64,000 nt of DNA, from contig NZ_CP071870.1 of assembly GCF_017569205.1 (NCBI RefSeq), positions 1,426,001 through 1,490,000 on the forward strand. Direction: 5' to 3'. Within the stretch, counting starts at the first letter, position 1; every line of letters begins with the position of its first letter. Of this stretch, positions 5,997 to 49,365 are shown in pieces. Source of the stretch: Propioniciclava sp. MC1595 (GTDB taxonomy: Bacteria > Actinomycetota > Actinomycetes > Propionibacteriales > Propionibacteriaceae). The position numbers were made by a program, and so were the translations under genes. Below the pieces are notes generated by a model that was not told the origin of the DNA, made no database searches, and saw only the letters and a program-made list of their open reading frames with translations.

Positions 5997-6795
5997 GAGC
6001 AATGATCAGAACCTGTGGATGGTCTTCGGCGGGGTGACGTGAAGGAGCGCACCTCCCCGTGGATGATCTGAAGTCCGAGTAGCTCTGATCAGGACCGGCG
6101 TTGACGCGCTGGTTCGGGAAGGTACGCCCATGCTTACGGTAGTCCACGACGAGAACGAGTCCAACGAGCACGCCCCGGCCGCGGTGGGTGGGTCGATGCT
6201 GGACGAGTTGGCCCGGGAGGGTGCCCGGCGGATGCTGGCTGCGGCGTTGCAGGCTGAGGTCGCCGCCTACATCGAGCAGTGCGCCGACGAGCTCGACGCC
6301 GACGGCCGGCGGCTGGTGGTCCGCAACGGCTACCACCAGCCGCGGGAGGTGGCCACTGCCGCGGGTGCGGTACCGGTCCGGGCGCCGCGGGTCAACGACA
6401 AGCGCGTCGATGAGGCCACGGGTGAGCGGCGGCGGTTCTCGTCGGCGATCCTGCCGGCGTGGGCGCGGAAGTCGCCGCAGGTGGCCGACGTGCTGCCCTT
6501 GTTGTACCTGCACGGGTTGTCCAGCGGGGACTTCGTGGCCGCCCTGGAGCAGTTCTGCGGGTCGGCGGCGGGGTTGTCGGCGGCGACGATCACCCGGCTC
6601 ACCCGGCAGTGGCAAGACGAGGCCCGCGCGTTCCACGACCGGTCGCTGGCGGGGGTCGATTATGTGTACCTGTGGGTGGACGGCATCCACCTGAAGGTGC
6701 GGCTGGAGGCCGATAAGGTGTGCCTGCTGGTGATGATCGGGGTCCGTGCCGATGGCAGCAAGGAACTCGTCGCGCTCGCCGACGGGTACCGCGAG

Positions 6796-44693: not shown

Positions 44694-46462
44694 ACCTGAG
44701 TTGGGTCAAGCGGCTTAGTGCCTTGAGCTGGCTTGTTTGAGGTCGTCAAGGACGGCCTGCTCGTCGTCGCCGAGGGCTGGTGGCAGGGTCTGGATAGCGC
44801 CGTTGGCCTGGATCGTTGCTGAACGCAGCGGACGGAGTTGGCGCAGGACTCGACGTAGCGACAGGCCGGTCCGGTCCTGGACGGTGCGGCCGATGGCTAG
44901 GGCGGTGAACACGATGGTCAGGTGCGCCTCGATGGAGTCGCGTCGTCTGGCGAACAGTGGGCGGGCCCTCAGGTCACTCTTGGACATCCTGAAGGAGTGC
45001 TCCACGTGCCACAGGTCGGCATAGGAGCTGATCACCTCGGCAGCGGGCAGCACCGTGGCCGGGATGTTGGTGACCAGGCCTTTGAGTCCTGCCAACCGCC
45101 GGGCTCGGGCCAGCGCGGCTTCGTCCAGGACCAGTCCGTCGGTCTGTGTCTTGACGAACCTGGGCGTCCGGGCTGGTTTGTCCCCCTCGATCGCTGCCCG
45201 GGCCCGGTTCTCCTGGGCGGTGAGGGTCTTGTTGTCCCGGGCGAACCGCTTGGCCGAGTAGGACCACACCGCCCGCCACGAGTTGCGGTGCTGCTCGGGG
45301 TCCCAGACCGGCTCGCGACGCTTGGCGGTGTCGTTGTCGGTGTTCTTGCCGACCTTGGGGGTCAGGGTGTCGATGACCTGGCCGTCGGTGAACACATCCC
45401 CGTGCCAGCGGAAGTGGGAGGCCAGGTCGATCGGGGCCTTGGTGGTCTTGGACCCGACGATGAAGGTGTGCCCGGCCTGATCCAGGGCCTTCAAATTGGC
45501 AGCCGACAGCATCCCGGCGTCAGCGACCACGACCAAGTCCTCGATCTCGTGCCGGGCGGCGAAGGCCTCGATGATCGGCACGATCGTGTGCGTCTCGGCC
45601 TTGTTGCCCTCCCAGCACCCGATCTCCAACGGGAAACCGTGCCGGTCGACCAGCAGACCGACGATGATCTGCGGGTCGACCCGGCGTTCCTTGGAGTAGC
45701 CGACCTTGCGCAGGGCATCTTCCTCAGCGGCTTCGAAGTGCAGCGTGGTCACGTCGTACAGGCACAACGACACATCCCCGCTGGCCCGGGCCTGCTCGAA
45801 GCACAGTTTGGCGACCTGGTCGCGGTAGGCCCCGTCCTGGCATCGGCCCAACGTGCGCTTGCGCGTCGACAGGCTGGCCGCGGTCCGACCCAGGTCTGCC
45901 AGCACCCGGTCCACGTCCAGCAGGCTGGTCGGCTCCACCACCCGCGCGATGACCAGGTCGCGGAACACCTCATCGTCCAGGACGTCGAAACCCAGGTCGG
46001 TGTACACCCCGGCCAACGCCTCATACAGCAACGCCGAGGACGTTCGCAGCACACGAGGCGCGGCCACCACCGGGCGCCGCACCGGGCCCTTGACCTGCTC
46101 CCCGAACAGCGTCTCGGCCGGGGCCGGCACCATCGCGGCCCAAGGAACTGGCAGCGACAGCCCCAGATCCAACTGCCCCTGGGCATCGTCCTGGAGCAGC
46201 TTGCTGGCCTGGGCCATCAGCAGCCCAAGCTCGGCCTCATCGTGCGCCGACCCCACGTGCCGCACGATGCGACGTCGACCACCCACCGACTCAGCGATCT
46301 GCACCGCGGTCGCCCCCGAGGCCGTCCGCACCCGCCGAATCCACGCCATGCCCCGATCCTAGAGTCCCGCTTAGTGCCTAAACGAAGCACCAAGCCACGG
46401 CATCACCGCAAGTCACGGCCCCTACCGATGCAAGAATCGCCGAACGGTGACCCAACTCAGGT
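44694..46462. mobile_element. IS1634-family element
   Basis: 1769 bp with perfect 15-bp terminal inverted repeats (ACCTGAGTTGGGTCA). A 3-bp CCG flanks both sides (44691-44693, 46463-46465), possibly part of a target duplication. The right end stops about 20 bp before the -35 region of the metQ leader. Confidence 0.88.
44715..46349 (-). CDS. IS1634-family transposase
   Basis: 544 residues, DDE transposase. Catalytic Asp in VSLCLYDVTTLHFEAAEEDA, Asp in LVVVADAGMLSAANLKAL and Glu in DLWHVEHSFRMSKSDLRARP. N-terminal MAWIRRVRTASGATAVQIAE is characteristic of the family. Intact, probably active. Confidence 0.94.
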   Translation of the reverse strand: MAWIRRVRTASGATAVQIAESVGGRRRIVRHVGSAHDEAELGLLMAQASKLLQDDAQGQLDLGLSLPVPWAAMVPAPAETLFGEQVKGPVRRPVVAAPRVLRTSSALLYEALAGVYTDLGFDVLDDEVFRDLVIARVVEPTSLLDVDRVLADLGRTAASLSTRKRTLGRCQDGAYRDQVAKLCFEQARASGDVSLCLYDVTTLHFEAAEEDALRKVGYSKERRVDPQIIVGLLVDRHGFPLEIGCWEGNKAETHTIVPIIEAFAARHEIEDLVVVADAGMLSAANLKALDQAGHTFIVGSKTTKAPIDLASHFRWHGDVFTDGQVIDTLTPKVGKNTDNDTAKRREPVWDPEQHRNSWRAVWSYSAKRFARDNKTLTAQENRARAAIEGDKPARTPRFVKTQTDGLVLDEAALARARRLAGLKGLVTNIPATVLPAAEVISSYADLWHVEHSFRMSKSDLRARPLFARRRDSIEAHLTIVFTALAIGRTVQDRTGLSLRRVLRQLRPLRSATIQANGAIQTLPPALGDDEQAVLDDLKQASSRH

Positions 46463-46504
46463 CCGAGGGGCGGACGGATTATGAGTCCTCGTCACCAGTC
46501 GGGC

Positions 46505-46510
46505 TAGCCT
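46505..46510 (+). promoter_or_regulatory. -10 element (TAGCCT) for a leaderless transcript
   Basis: TAGCCT ends 7 bases before the ATG at 46518, the spacing at which actinobacterial promoters start transcription on the A of the start codon. A weak -35 (TGAGTC near 46483-46488) lies about 16 bp upstream. It is the only plausible promoter between the IS1634 end and the metQ operon. Confidence 0.5.
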
Positions 46511-46517
46511 GTGCGCC

Positions 46518-46589
46518 ATGGGTCAGATCATCTCCGCGGCGAACGCCGTCATGATGATGCCCACGTGCTGTCGGCGAATGTGCGCCTGA
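46518..46589 (+). CDS. Met/Cys-rich leader peptide upstream of metQ
   Basis: A 23-codon ORF: MGQIISAANAVMMMP then TCCRRMCA and TGA. It contains three consecutive ATG codons, two adjacent Cys codons (TGC TGT), then Met-Cys; 5 of 23 residues are Met and 3 are Cys. It starts where transcription probably begins, and its stop codon overlaps the 5' arm of a 14-bp stem ending 47 bases before metQ. This is the layout of an attenuation leader that stalls ribosomes when charged Met- or Cys-tRNA is short. Confidence 0.7.
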   Translation: MGQIISAANAVMMMPTCCRRMCA

Positions 46590-46674
46590 CAGCACGGATC
46601 CGGTCGCTCCCCGGGAGGGTCGAGCGAACCTGTCCGGTGAACCCTGCAGCCTTCGCTCGCGGTTCCGTGCTGTC
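46588..46674 (+). promoter_or_regulatory. Attenuator-like RNA structure between leader peptide and metQ
   Basis: An outer stem pairs GACAGCACGGATCC (46588-46601) with GGTTCCGTGCTGTC (46661-46674), one mismatch. Inside, CGAGCGAA (46621-46628) pairs with TTCGCTCG (46652-46659). An alternative hairpin pairs TCGCTC (46604-46609) with GAGCGA (46622-46627), using the same bases, so the two inner forms exclude each other. No U-run follows, so control may act on translation or through Rho. Confidence 0.65.
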
Positions 46675-46720
46675 GGCCTGTGTTCCAGCCAGCCCACGAA
46701 GACGAAATGAGAGAAGAGCC

Positions 46721-47578
46721 ATGTTCCGCCGTGTGACCACCACCGTTGCCACCCTCCTCGCCGCCGGCCTCGTGCTGAGCGGCTGCGGCGCCACCCAGAG
46801 CGGGACGCCGGGTGCCGCCGCCGACACCTCCGAGCCCCTGCGCATCATCGCCGACGTCACCCCCCACGCCGTCCTGCTCGAGGAGGCCGAGAAGCAGGGC
46901 CTGCTCGGCGACGTGGAGATCGACGTCACCGAGATCTCGGGCGACATCGACCCCAACCAGCTCGTCAACGCGGGTGACCTCGACGCCAACTTCTTCCAGC
47001 ACGTGCCCTACCTCAACGACTGGAACGCCCAGCACGACGGCGCCGACCTCGTCGCCCTCGCGCCGGTCCACGTCGAGCCGCTCGGCCTCTACTCCGAGAA
47101 GGTCACGCTCGACAGCGTCCCGGACGGTGCGGTCATCGCCATCCCGGCCGACGCCACCAACCAGGCCCGCGCCCTGTTCCTGATCGCCGACGCCGGCCTC
47201 ATCACCCTCGACGTGAAGGCCGACGACGAGGGCCTCGACTACAGCCAGATCACCCCCGAGACCAACGTCACGGGCAACCCCAAGAACATCTCCTGGCTGA
47301 AGATCGACCGCCCGCAGCTGGCCGCCACGCTGAAGGACCCGAAGGTCACCCTCTCGATCATCAACGGCAACTACGCCCTCGAGGCCGGGCTCACCCCGGC
47401 GTCCGACGCCCTGAAGCTGGAGTCGGCCGACAACAACCCCTACGCCAACGTGCTGGTGGTCAAGGAGGCCCTCAAGGACGACCCGCGCGTGGTGAAGGTC
47501 AACGAGGCGCTGACCAGCCCCGAGCTGCAGAAGTTCATCGAGGACACCTTCAAGGGCTCCGTCCTCCCCGCCAAGTGA
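46721..47578 (+). CDS. metQ: Methionine ABC transporter substrate-binding lipoprotein MetQ
   Basis: 285 residues from ATG 46721, with GAGAGAAGAG ahead of it; the frame is open further upstream but only as part of the leader region. Signal peptide and lipobox: TTVATLLAAGLVLSGCG. The NlpA/MetQ domain follows (PLRIIADVTPHAVLLEEAEK, QLVNAGDLDANFFQHVPYLN, KNISWLKIDRPQLAATLKD, INGNYALEAGLTPA). Exported and lipid-anchored, it captures L- or D-methionine for MetNI. First gene of metQ-metN-metI. Confidence 0.95.
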   Translation: MFRRVTTTVATLLAAGLVLSGCGATQSGTPGAAADTSEPLRIIADVTPHAVLLEEAEKQGLLGDVEIDVTEISGDIDPNQLVNAGDLDANFFQHVPYLNDWNAQHDGADLVALAPVHVEPLGLYSEKVTLDSVPDGAVIAIPADATNQARALFLIADAGLITLDVKADDEGLDYSQITPETNVTGNPKNISWLKIDRPQLAATLKDPKVTLSIINGNYALEAGLTPASDALKLESADNNPYANVLVVKEALKDDPRVVKVNEALTSPELQKFIEDTFKGSVLPAK

Positions 47579-47593
47579 TCGGCTGAACCACTC

Positions 47594-48577
47594 GTGATCG
47601 AGGTCACCTCACTGACGAAGGTCTACGGCACCGGTGACGGCGCCGTGACTGCGGTCGACGACGTCTCGCTGAGCGTCCCGGCCGGCCAGGTCTTCGGGAT
47701 CCTGGGCCGGTCGGGCGCCGGCAAGACGACCCTCATGCGCTGTCTGACGGCGCTCGAGCGCCCCACGTCGGGGAGCGTGACCATCGGCGAGCTCAACCTC
47801 ACCGAGCTGACGGCGTCCGGGCTGCGCAAGGCCCGCCACCGGATGGGCATGATCTTCCAGCACTTCAACCTGCTGGGCAGCCGGACCGCCGCCGACAACA
47901 TCGCCTTCCCCCTCGAGGTGCAGGGCGTGCCCGCCGCCGAGCGGCGCAAGCGGGTCGCCGAACTCATCGAGCTCGTCGGCCTGCAGGGGCGCGAGCACGC
48001 GTTCCCGTCGCAGCTGTCGGGCGGGCAGAAGCAGCGCGTCGGCATCGCCCGCGCGCTCGCGGCCCATCCCGACGTGCTGTTCTGCGACGAGGCCACCTCG
48101 GCGCTCGACCCGGCCACCACCGAGCAGATCCTCGACCTGCTCAAGGAGATCAACCGGAAGACCGGGGTCACGATCGTGCTGATCACGCACGAGTCCGAGG
48201 TCGTGCGCCGCATCTGCGACGCGGCCGCGCTGATGGCGTCCGGTCGCGTCGTCGAGCAGGGGCCGCTGCTGGAGCTGCTGGCCGACCCCGACTCCCAGCT
48301 GGCCGACATCCTCCTGCCGGTCGGCGACGCCTCGCTCGACCCCGACCACACCTCCGTCGTGCTCGGTTTCGCGCACGGCGGCACCACCGAGCCGGTCATC
48401 TCGGGGCTGACCCGCCGCTTCGGGCTCGACGTGTCGATCCTGGGCGGCGCGGTCGAGACCGTGGCCGGGCAGAAGGTCGGACGCCTGCGGGTCGCGTTCT
48501 CGCACCCCGACGGCTCCTACGACAAGGATGCCGTGGCCGCCTACCTCGCCGAGCATGAAGTGAGCGTGCACCTGTGA
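47594..48577 (+). CDS. metN: Methionine ABC transporter ATP-binding protein MetN
   Basis: 327 residues from GTG 47594. Walker A GRSGAGKTTLMRCL, Q-loop MIFQHFNLLGSRTAADNIAF, signature LSGGQKQRVGIARAL, Walker B VLFCDEATSALDP, switch His in VLITHESEVVRRIC. A C-terminal NIL/ACT-like domain (about residues 250-325) is the methionine-sensing domain that trans-inhibits MetNI. Ends overlapping metI by 4 bases (GTGA). Confidence 0.96.
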   Translation: MIEVTSLTKVYGTGDGAVTAVDDVSLSVPAGQVFGILGRSGAGKTTLMRCLTALERPTSGSVTIGELNLTELTASGLRKARHRMGMIFQHFNLLGSRTAADNIAFPLEVQGVPAAERRKRVAELIELVGLQGREHAFPSQLSGGQKQRVGIARALAAHPDVLFCDEATSALDPATTEQILDLLKEINRKTGVTIVLITHESEVVRRICDAAALMASGRVVEQGPLLELLADPDSQLADILLPVGDASLDPDHTSVVLGFAHGGTTEPVISGLTRRFGLDVSILGGAVETVAGQKVGRLRVAFSHPDGSYDKDAVAAYLAEHEVSVHL

Positions 48578-49245
48578 CCCAGAAGACGTGGATCGAAGCC
48601 CTACCCGAACTGCTCGGTGCGCTGGGGGAGACCGCCTGGATGGTCGGCTGGTCCTTCCTCATCGTGGTGCTGCTCGGCACGGCCGTGGGGGTGCTGCTGC
48701 GCCTGTGGGCGTCCGACGGCCTCGTGCCCTCGCGGGGGCTCTACGCCGTGGTGGGCGCCGTGGTGAACATCGCCCGCTCGCTGCCGTTCCTGATCCTGAT
48801 GATCGCGCTCATCGGGTTCACCCGCTGGCTGGTCGGCACCGCCTACGGGCCCACGCCGGCCATCGTGCCGCTGGCCGTCGGCGCCATCCCCTTCTACGCC
48901 CGCGTGGTCGAGGCCGCGCTGCGTGAGGTCGCGCCCGGCAAGATCGAGGCGGCCCAGGTCATGGGCGCCACCACCTGGGACATCGTCCGCAAGGTGCTGC
49001 TGCCCGAGTCGCTGCCCGGGCTGGTCGCGGGCGCGACACTTACCCTGGTCACGCTGATCGGCTACTCGACGATGGCCGGCGTCATCGGCGGCGGCGGCGT
49101 GGGTGACTTCGCCATCCGGTACGGGTACCAGCGCTTCAACGAGCCCGTGCTGCTCATGTCGGTGGTCGTGCTGATCATCATCGTCCAGCTCGTGCAGTCG
49201 ATCGGCGACTGGCTCGTCTCCCGTATGGCCCACCGCCGCGGCTGA
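48574..49245 (+). CDS. metI: Methionine ABC transporter permease MetI
   Basis: 223 residues from GTG 48574. Five hydrophobic segments and the EAA loop AALREVAPGKIEAAQVMGAT TWDIVRKVLLPESLP that docks MetN. N-terminus MTQKTWIEALPELLGALGET is typical of MetI. Last gene of the operon; a tRNA gene starts 43 bp later. Confidence 0.96.
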   Translation: MTQKTWIEALPELLGALGETAWMVGWSFLIVVLLGTAVGVLLRLWASDGLVPSRGLYAVVGAVVNIARSLPFLILMIALIGFTRWLVGTAYGPTPAIVPLAVGAIPFYARVVEAALREVAPGKIEAAQVMGATTWDIVRKVLLPESLPGLVAGATLTLVTLIGYSTMAGVIGGGGVGDFAIRYGYQRFNEPVLLMSVVVLIIIVQLVQSIGDWLVSRMAHRRG

Positions 49246-49288: not shown

Positions 49289-49365
49289 GGGGCGTTAGCT
49301 CAGCCGGTCAGAGCAGGGGACTCATAATCCCTGGGTCGCGGGTTCGAGCCCCGCACGCCCCACCA
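49289..49365 (+). tRNA. tRNA with anticodon CAT, probably tRNA-Ile2
   Basis: Acceptor stem GGGGCGT/ACGCCCC, D arm GCTC...GAGC, anticodon stem GGGGA/TCCCT around CTCATAA, T arm GCGGG-TTCGAGC-CCCGC, discriminator A, CCA encoded at 49363-49365. The body (TTAGCTCAG, AGAGCAGGGGACTCATAATC, GGTCGC) resembles tRNA-Ile2, whose CAT is modified to lysidine, more than elongator tRNA-Met; a tRNA-Met identity is not excluded. Confidence 0.85.

Follow-up and report, generated by a model that had tools for sequence, protein, structure and literature searches.

A probable ribosome-mediated attenuator with conserved repeat arms in front of metQNI in Propionibacteriaceae

Among the described systems closest to the one considered here is metL of Streptomyces lividans TK24, a leaderless leader in front of the metNIQ operon, the peptide of which ends in CMCRRMCAF and for which termination is left unclear in the available part of the report (2021; PMC8079986). 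Leaders with runs of Cys codons have also been reported for the cys operons of Mycobacterium spp. and Propionibacterium acnes, as well as for cbs of Bifidobacterium longum (2005; PMC1262725); according to the portion of that study at hand, the other elements of an attenuator are missing there, and no conserved structure precedes methionine operons. Furthermore, leaderless short ORFs (sORFs) encoding polycysteine are known in mycobacteria (Canestrari 2020, as summarised in the accessible parts of PMC9031893 and PMC13236596), and ilvB1 of Mycobacterium tuberculosis is presented, in the part of PMC13236596 available to us, as a classical leader-peptide attenuator.

In this paper, we describe a leader region before metQNI in a 64,000-nucleotide stretch of the Propioniciclava sp. 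MC1595 genome (G000), the whole of which is referred to as the window (Table 1), and we consider it probable, from the layout of codons and predicted folds, that this region is a ribosome-mediated attenuator. As with S. lividans metL, a leaderless ORF stands before a methionine importer operon and no intrinsic terminator is seen, so far as the available part of that report goes; the likeness lies in the position ahead of a metNIQ-type operon and in the ending C, R, (R), M (CCRRMCA here and CMCRRMCAF there), whereas the gene order differs (metQNI here, metNIQ there). In addition, the accessible text on metL depicts several hairpins with unnamed arms, while three arms, A1, A2 and A4, can be named here. 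The leaders in the available part of PMC1262725 likewise have Cys codons near the stop and no intrinsic terminator, but a three-arm set is present in the locus described here. The mycobacterial polycysteine sORFs share the leaderless form and contiguous Cys codons (with the tandem and the -10 spacing of our leaders) and differ, as summarised in the parts of the two papers at hand, in the Met codons beside the Cys tandem here; conserved repeat arms are a feature of our leaders. The initial annotation of this DNA had called a leader with both Met and Cys codons on the methionine importer not a standard description. This holds only in part in view of the published metL leader, at least from the part of PMC8079986 available; a search of open-access literature yielded neither the A1/A2/A4 arms nor a leader preceding metQNI in this family. 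Thus the kind of switch is known, and the conserved RNA layout with the three arms looks new.

Table 1. Features of the metQNI leader region and its surroundings (positions in the window)
Feature	Position	Strand	Remark
IS element	44715-46462		DDE transposase 44715-46349 (minus strand)
-10-like element TAGCCT	46505-46510	+	7 nt 5' of leader ATG; read by eye, tested by spacing
Leader ORF, probably leaderless	46518-46589	+	23 codons, MGQIISAANAVMMMPTCCRRMCA, then stop; from ORF reading and relatives
P0 hairpin	46519-46563	+	46519-46523 + 46527-46532 with 46553-46558 + 46559-46563
ATG ATG ATG	46551-46559	+	codons 12-14; also within P0 3' arm
Arm A1	46565-46572	+	GTGCTGTC, spans the tandem Cys; partner of A2, pairing reaches 46576
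TGC TGT, tandem Cys	46566-46571	+	codons 17-18
Leader stop codon	46587-46589	+	
Arm A2	46588-46595	+	GACAGCAC, overlaps stop codon; pairs with A1 or A4
Segment B1	46604-46609	+	TCGCTC, complementary to B2
Segment B2	46622-46627	+	GAGCGA, complementary to B1 and B3
Segment B3	46653-46658	+	TCGCTC, complementary to B2
Arm A4	46667-46674	+	GTGCTGTC, repeats A1 directly; partner of A2; ends 46 nt before metQ
metQ	46721-47578	+	NlpA/MetQ-type lipoprotein; presumed regulated gene
metN	47594-48577	+	ABC ATPase with NIL domain
metI	48574-49245	+	ABC permease

The stop codon of the leader ORF is separated by 131 nt from the start of metQ, the first gene of metQNI. A Met- and Cys-rich ORF between a -10 element and metQ, starting where a leaderless transcript would begin, had been proposed before; the ORF is confirmed, and its place at the probable transcript start is supported. 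A TANNNT hexamer lies exactly 7 nt 5' of the leader ORF in all 13 family genomes with a MetQ at least 59% identical, and from this fixed distance we infer that the transcript probably starts, leaderless, at the leader ATG. A sigma-70 consensus scan gave no match at the leader, and NCBIfam contained no family for the five leader peptides searched. The 207-nt leader folds modestly better than its shuffles (z -1.80; 10 of 200 shuffles as stable); we regard the leader in the window as more than chance because leader and arms recur in relatives. The same recurrence bears on the notion that the small ORF arose by chance within an N-terminal extension of metQ from the GTG at 46511. The frame is indeed open from 46511 to 47578, but a lipoprotein-type signal begins at 46721, and the open frame has 291 codons in G009 and 287 in G011 vs 356 here; conservation therefore covers the leader but not the extension, and this reading is extremely improbable.

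Between the end of the IS element and the -10 box there are 42 nt, and neither leader nor arms are disrupted by the insertion; the IS end occurs at six sites in the genome, counting that in the window, and the upstream letters of the relative G009 are similar to those of the window but without the IS. On the other side of the operon, 43 nt after metI, there is a tRNA gene with a CAU anticodon (49289-49365); a CAU tRNA after metQ is also present in G009, and in none of the 3.3-3.5 kb regions of eleven other relatives. At 6022-6093 of the window, on the minus strand, Rfam gives a match to Ms_AS-8, an actinobacterial sRNA.

The conservation of the leader was followed in 198 genomes of the family, 78 of which have a MetQ match at E <= 1e-30. 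The cut for metQ orthologues, 59% identity, was chosen after seeing where the leader degrades, and candidate ORFs were initially selected by requiring two or more Cys. The 13 genomes above the cut have 12 distinct leaders, all of which contain the tandem Cys (CC), while the Met triplet (MMM) is present in four. Met makes up 47 and Cys 38 of the 281 leader residues, compared with 1.3% and 0.5%, respectively, in the MetQNI proteins of the window. The last Met is at most two codons from the tandem in 11 of the 12, and G003 has no Met before it. Below the cut, G027 (MetQ 56%) has an ORF that resembles a leader in its two Cys and its 7-nt spacing, but it lacks an inner Met and gives no match to model R1; no leader was found in G014 (MetQ 53%), and one of the three g35 genomes (MetQ 46%), G195, has a Cys/Met leader. 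The pattern TGYTGYCGNCGAATG has seven matches in 13 genomes of the genus, i.e. six metQ leaders and one unrelated site. A pattern match in G012 was rejected as a leader, as it does not precede metQ and the 60-codon frame around it has no fitting -10 box. An alignment with relatives, which the initial annotation had proposed as a check, thus upholds the ORF and its Cys tandem and the recurrence of the arms, but not the Met triplet as a constant element, and the covariation of A2 with A4 is thin (see below).

From the Cys codons onwards, the RNA is predicted to fold in two ways. A1 is an exact repeat of A4, and the pairings A1:A2 and A2:A4 are mutually exclusive. The initial annotation had seen competing hairpins and a leader stop inside the 5' arm of a near-perfect 14-bp stem; in that stem 46588-46601 faces 46661-46674, with 13 of the 14 positions paired, and exclusivity holds for A1:A2 vs A2:A4, an alternative involving an arm, A1, that was absent from that description, and it is conserved with the exceptions of G031 and, weakly, G163. 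Around A2, the window has 11 nt that pair with A1 as well as with A4, which none of 300 dinucleotide shuffles matches. Among the 12 distinct metQ regions, such three-way complementarity is reached by 0-4 of 300 shuffles in seven and by 11 in two; the exceptions are G163 (94 of 300) and G031, where leader and A2:A4 are present and A1 is missing, and in G003 the best set is formed by the B segments (1 of 300). The spacing between A1 and A2 is 23 nt in 11 of 11 metQ leaders. When the 198 genomes were scanned with the metQ form of the pattern, 12 sites were found, of which 11 are metQ leaders and one is a chance site without a leader ORF; the match in G144 has no leaderless ORF. The reversed metQ- and cysK-form patterns have no match in these 198 genomes, and the exact three-way pattern search does not match G031 and G163.

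In energy calculations, the stretch spanning A1:A2 folds so stably that no more than 8 of 300 shuffles equal it in ten of the 12 regions (not in G031 and G107); with A1 left out, A2:A4 is part of the minimum-energy fold in ten of 12 (not in G008 and G105/G106); and enforcing A1:A2 costs 0-3 kcal/mol in ten of 11 and 8.5 kcal/mol in G011. The whole stretch from the leader stop to metQ beats its shuffles (at most 19 of 300) in eight of the 12 regions and is unremarkable in the window (41 of 300), G008, G031 and G163. In the A2:A4 helix, 94.4% of the cells are paired, vs 24-52% when the arms are slid against each other. Two-sided changes occur in one of its 11 pairs, a count reached by 169 of 500 shuffles; the covariation score is reached by 12 and the percentage paired by 18 of 500, the five measures ranging from 12 to 500 of 500. 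The formal evidence of covariation is thin because the helix hardly varies.

The initial annotation had also described two hairpins contesting one GAGCGA segment. Both complementarities (B1:B2 and B2:B3) are present, but 85 of 1000 shuffles reach them in the window, and A1:A2 vs A2:A4 is the better supported competition. The B set is marginal in the three nearest relatives as well (65-85 of 1000, the window included), beats shuffles in G003, G106, G107 and G108 (0-4 of 1000), and does no better than chance in G008, G031, G110, G163 and two cysK copies.

The arms are placed precisely with respect to the codons. Assuming a ribosome footprint of 26 nt, the size given in the accessible part of PMC13236596, a ribosome on one or the other codon of the Cys tandem covers all 8 nt of A1 and none of A2 in all 11 leaders with arms, and at the leader stop it covers none of A1 and all 8 nt of A2, again in all 11. 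At the last Met before the tandem, 7-8 nt of A1 and none of A2 are covered in ten of 11, G003 lacking such a Met. With the ribosome at the first Met codons of the triplet, just 1 and 4 of the 8 nt of A1 are masked, and at a Met after the tandem the footprint covers parts of both arms. It had been suggested that stalling at the Met or Cys codons would change the fold: the placement of the Cys tandem and of the last Met fits this, that of the first Mets of the triplet less so. In the proposed mechanism, the leader would be transcribed from its ATG and translated as a leaderless message. With ample Cys-tRNA, and perhaps Met-tRNA, the ribosome would reach the stop, mask A2 and leave, after which A1:A2 would form, together with B1:B2 where present, and metQNI would be expressed at a low level. 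A ribosome waiting at the tandem Cys, or at a Met zero to two codons before it, would instead mask A1, leaving A2 free to pair with A4, and metQNI would be expressed. This ON/OFF direction is assumed because it is the usual logic of such switches. As in M. tuberculosis ilvB1, to judge from the available part of PMC13236596, a waiting ribosome would mask one arm and a ribosome at the stop the next; unlike there, no T-run terminator was found, and a hairpin lies at the leader start codon.

As in attenuators generally, the leader ORF carries codons of the relevant amino acid and exclusive folds that would depend on ribosome position, again except in G031 and, weakly, G163; as for the intrinsic terminator fold of the transcriptional type, a scan of 46300-46800 found no terminator-like site. 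The output may be Rho-dependent termination or control of the metQ start, the predicted accessibility of which is higher in the A2:A4 fold in nine of 11 regions, in most of them only slightly. From the location before a methionine-pathway operon, one might suspect a riboswitch for SAM or another metabolite, to which the ORF would be incidental. An Rfam search, which the initial annotation had called for in order to exclude a riboswitch, returned no family at the gathering score at the leader; under relaxed settings the matches stay far below gathering, HTT-AS1_3 (E 0.51) overlapping the leader of the window and three more lying in the loci of four relatives. Moreover, few parts of the region are as well conserved as the codons, and a riboswitch is thus very improbable.

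The hairpin at the start codon, P0, is a further feature that the initial annotation did not contain. Its base pairs the start-codon region with the letters just 5' of the Cys tandem. In the window 3 of 300 shuffles equal its stability, and at most 12 of 300 do so in ten of the 12 distinct leaders, the others being G031 (24) and G163 (66). In G003 and G008, where P0 is kept without the ATG run, the GGG/CCC base is replaced by CAC/GUG-type pairing. The 3' side of P0 contains the ATG run of the window, so that some of these Met codons may serve a structural role. P0 would be held open by a waiting ribosome and could close once the ribosome is gone.

The three arms also occur before a second gene. 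Model R1 was searched in the genomes of the family and in 394 genomes of the class. In the family, the match ranking next after the metQ leaders (E 2.4e-4) is in G005 and precedes cysK; the leader there is MTNASGIGAARAAAHVMCRCCRPRA, the arms are GTGTTGTC / GACAACAC / GTGTTGTC, and the layout is the same in G011. Compared with the metQ form, GTGCTGTC / GACAGCAC / GTGCTGTC, all three arms have changed in step. The cysK-form pattern has two sites in the 198 genomes, both before cysK (G005 and G011), and the three-way complementarity is reached by 0 and 1 of 300 shuffles in two of the three cysK regions tested. The A set was found with only two of the eight Cys leaders tested before cysK, being absent from those of G163 and of five genomes of genus g16 (G107, G027, G109, G106 and G110). 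A further 22 family matches are weaker than the cysK one (E 0.001-0.1), and no Cys-tandem leader was seen in the ten that were read; in the 394 class genomes, the model found the locus of the window itself and nine matches at E 0.002-0.009. The two cysK genes of the window genome have no such leader directly upstream in the 330-380 nt read. Other types of Cys-rich leader ORFs, MITMRVATMCRCCASMACPAC and its kin and, in G107, MINAGLVLSAHMSVASMSACPCPCCR, precede cysK in genus g16 (L253, L262, L268, L269 and L271), all without A1/A2/A4.

The cysK occurrence is, in our view, the best pointer to cysteine as a signal, as judged from the letters of two genomes. An attenuator responding to Cys alone, with Met codons present since their letters build P0, is a reading to which we give somewhat less than an even chance. 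In its favour, the tandem is invariant and the Met triplet is not, G003 does without any Met before the tandem, the G027 leader-like ORF has two Cys and no inner Met, the arms recur before cysK, and P0 uses the ATG run and is kept without the run in G003 and G008. Against it, Met amounts to 17% of the leader residues, the last Met is almost always within two codons of the tandem and from there masks nearly all of A1, leaders rich in Met and Cys but different in sequence are found some 2 kb upstream of metQ in other genera, and the initial ORF filter favoured Cys over Met, though not the tandem. These Met codons, enriched and well placed, together with a target that is a methionine-type importer, speak for a dual sensor, in which a shortage of Met or of Cys would each stall the ribosome in the zone that masks A1. 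However, the Met position varies and none precedes the tandem in G003, and a lack of Met would be expected to slow translation initiation on the leader ORF as well; the dual sensor is likewise a serious candidate that falls short of being the probable one.

Leaders of related kind were also sought at more distant metQ loci, for which the best 80 named among the matches listed were considered, 37 of them taken as actinobacterial by name. A regular expression for a leader with a Cys/Arg/Met ending matched in 29 of these 37 (L138 being doubtful) and not in eight (L121 offering 61 nt upstream only). These leaders lie about 2 kb before metQ, in front of an ABC ATPase gene where readable. In 12 aligned Streptomyces-type loci an almost invariant hairpin follows the leader stop; no A1/A2/A4 repeats were seen in such loci by eye, and Rfam gave no match up to E 1 on three of them. 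At L088:2024-2080 and similar sites, the hairpin after the leader has the form CTCGCG-CCCC-GAAGCGAG, with a GGGCC stretch able to pair with its loop, and in L088, L089, L098 and L111 a palindrome, CTGTCC-N-CGGACAG, seen by eye 5' of the leader promoter, is perhaps a regulator site. Other genera of the family (L175, L185, L191, L198, L203, L204, L207 and L211) have another Met/Cys-rich leader, e.g. MFTTACRIARLHCAAPAMMCMRMCCC, probably leaderless, about 2 kb before metQ. A different leader, H-(I/L)-(D/E)-M-M plus at least one Cys near the stop, identified partly by eye, precedes a distantly related MetQ in the same genus (L022, L026 and L027).

A more far-reaching version of the attenuator, which we put forward tentatively and hold to be rather unlikely as a whole, is an OR gate: a single leaderless leader would read the supply of both Met and Cys, codons of both types lying in the zone where a waiting ribosome masks A1; P0 would turn the leaderless start codon into a switch of its own, which stays open only as long as a ribosome is held on those codons; and the same repeat-arm cassette would be used before an importer and before cysteine synthase. 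For the attenuator in its simpler form, the family offers candidate switching arms in an exact geometry with respect to the codons, so that a handful of point mutations could put the mechanism to the test. Should P0 act in the way suggested here, it would be a case of a leaderless start codon gated by its own coding sequence.
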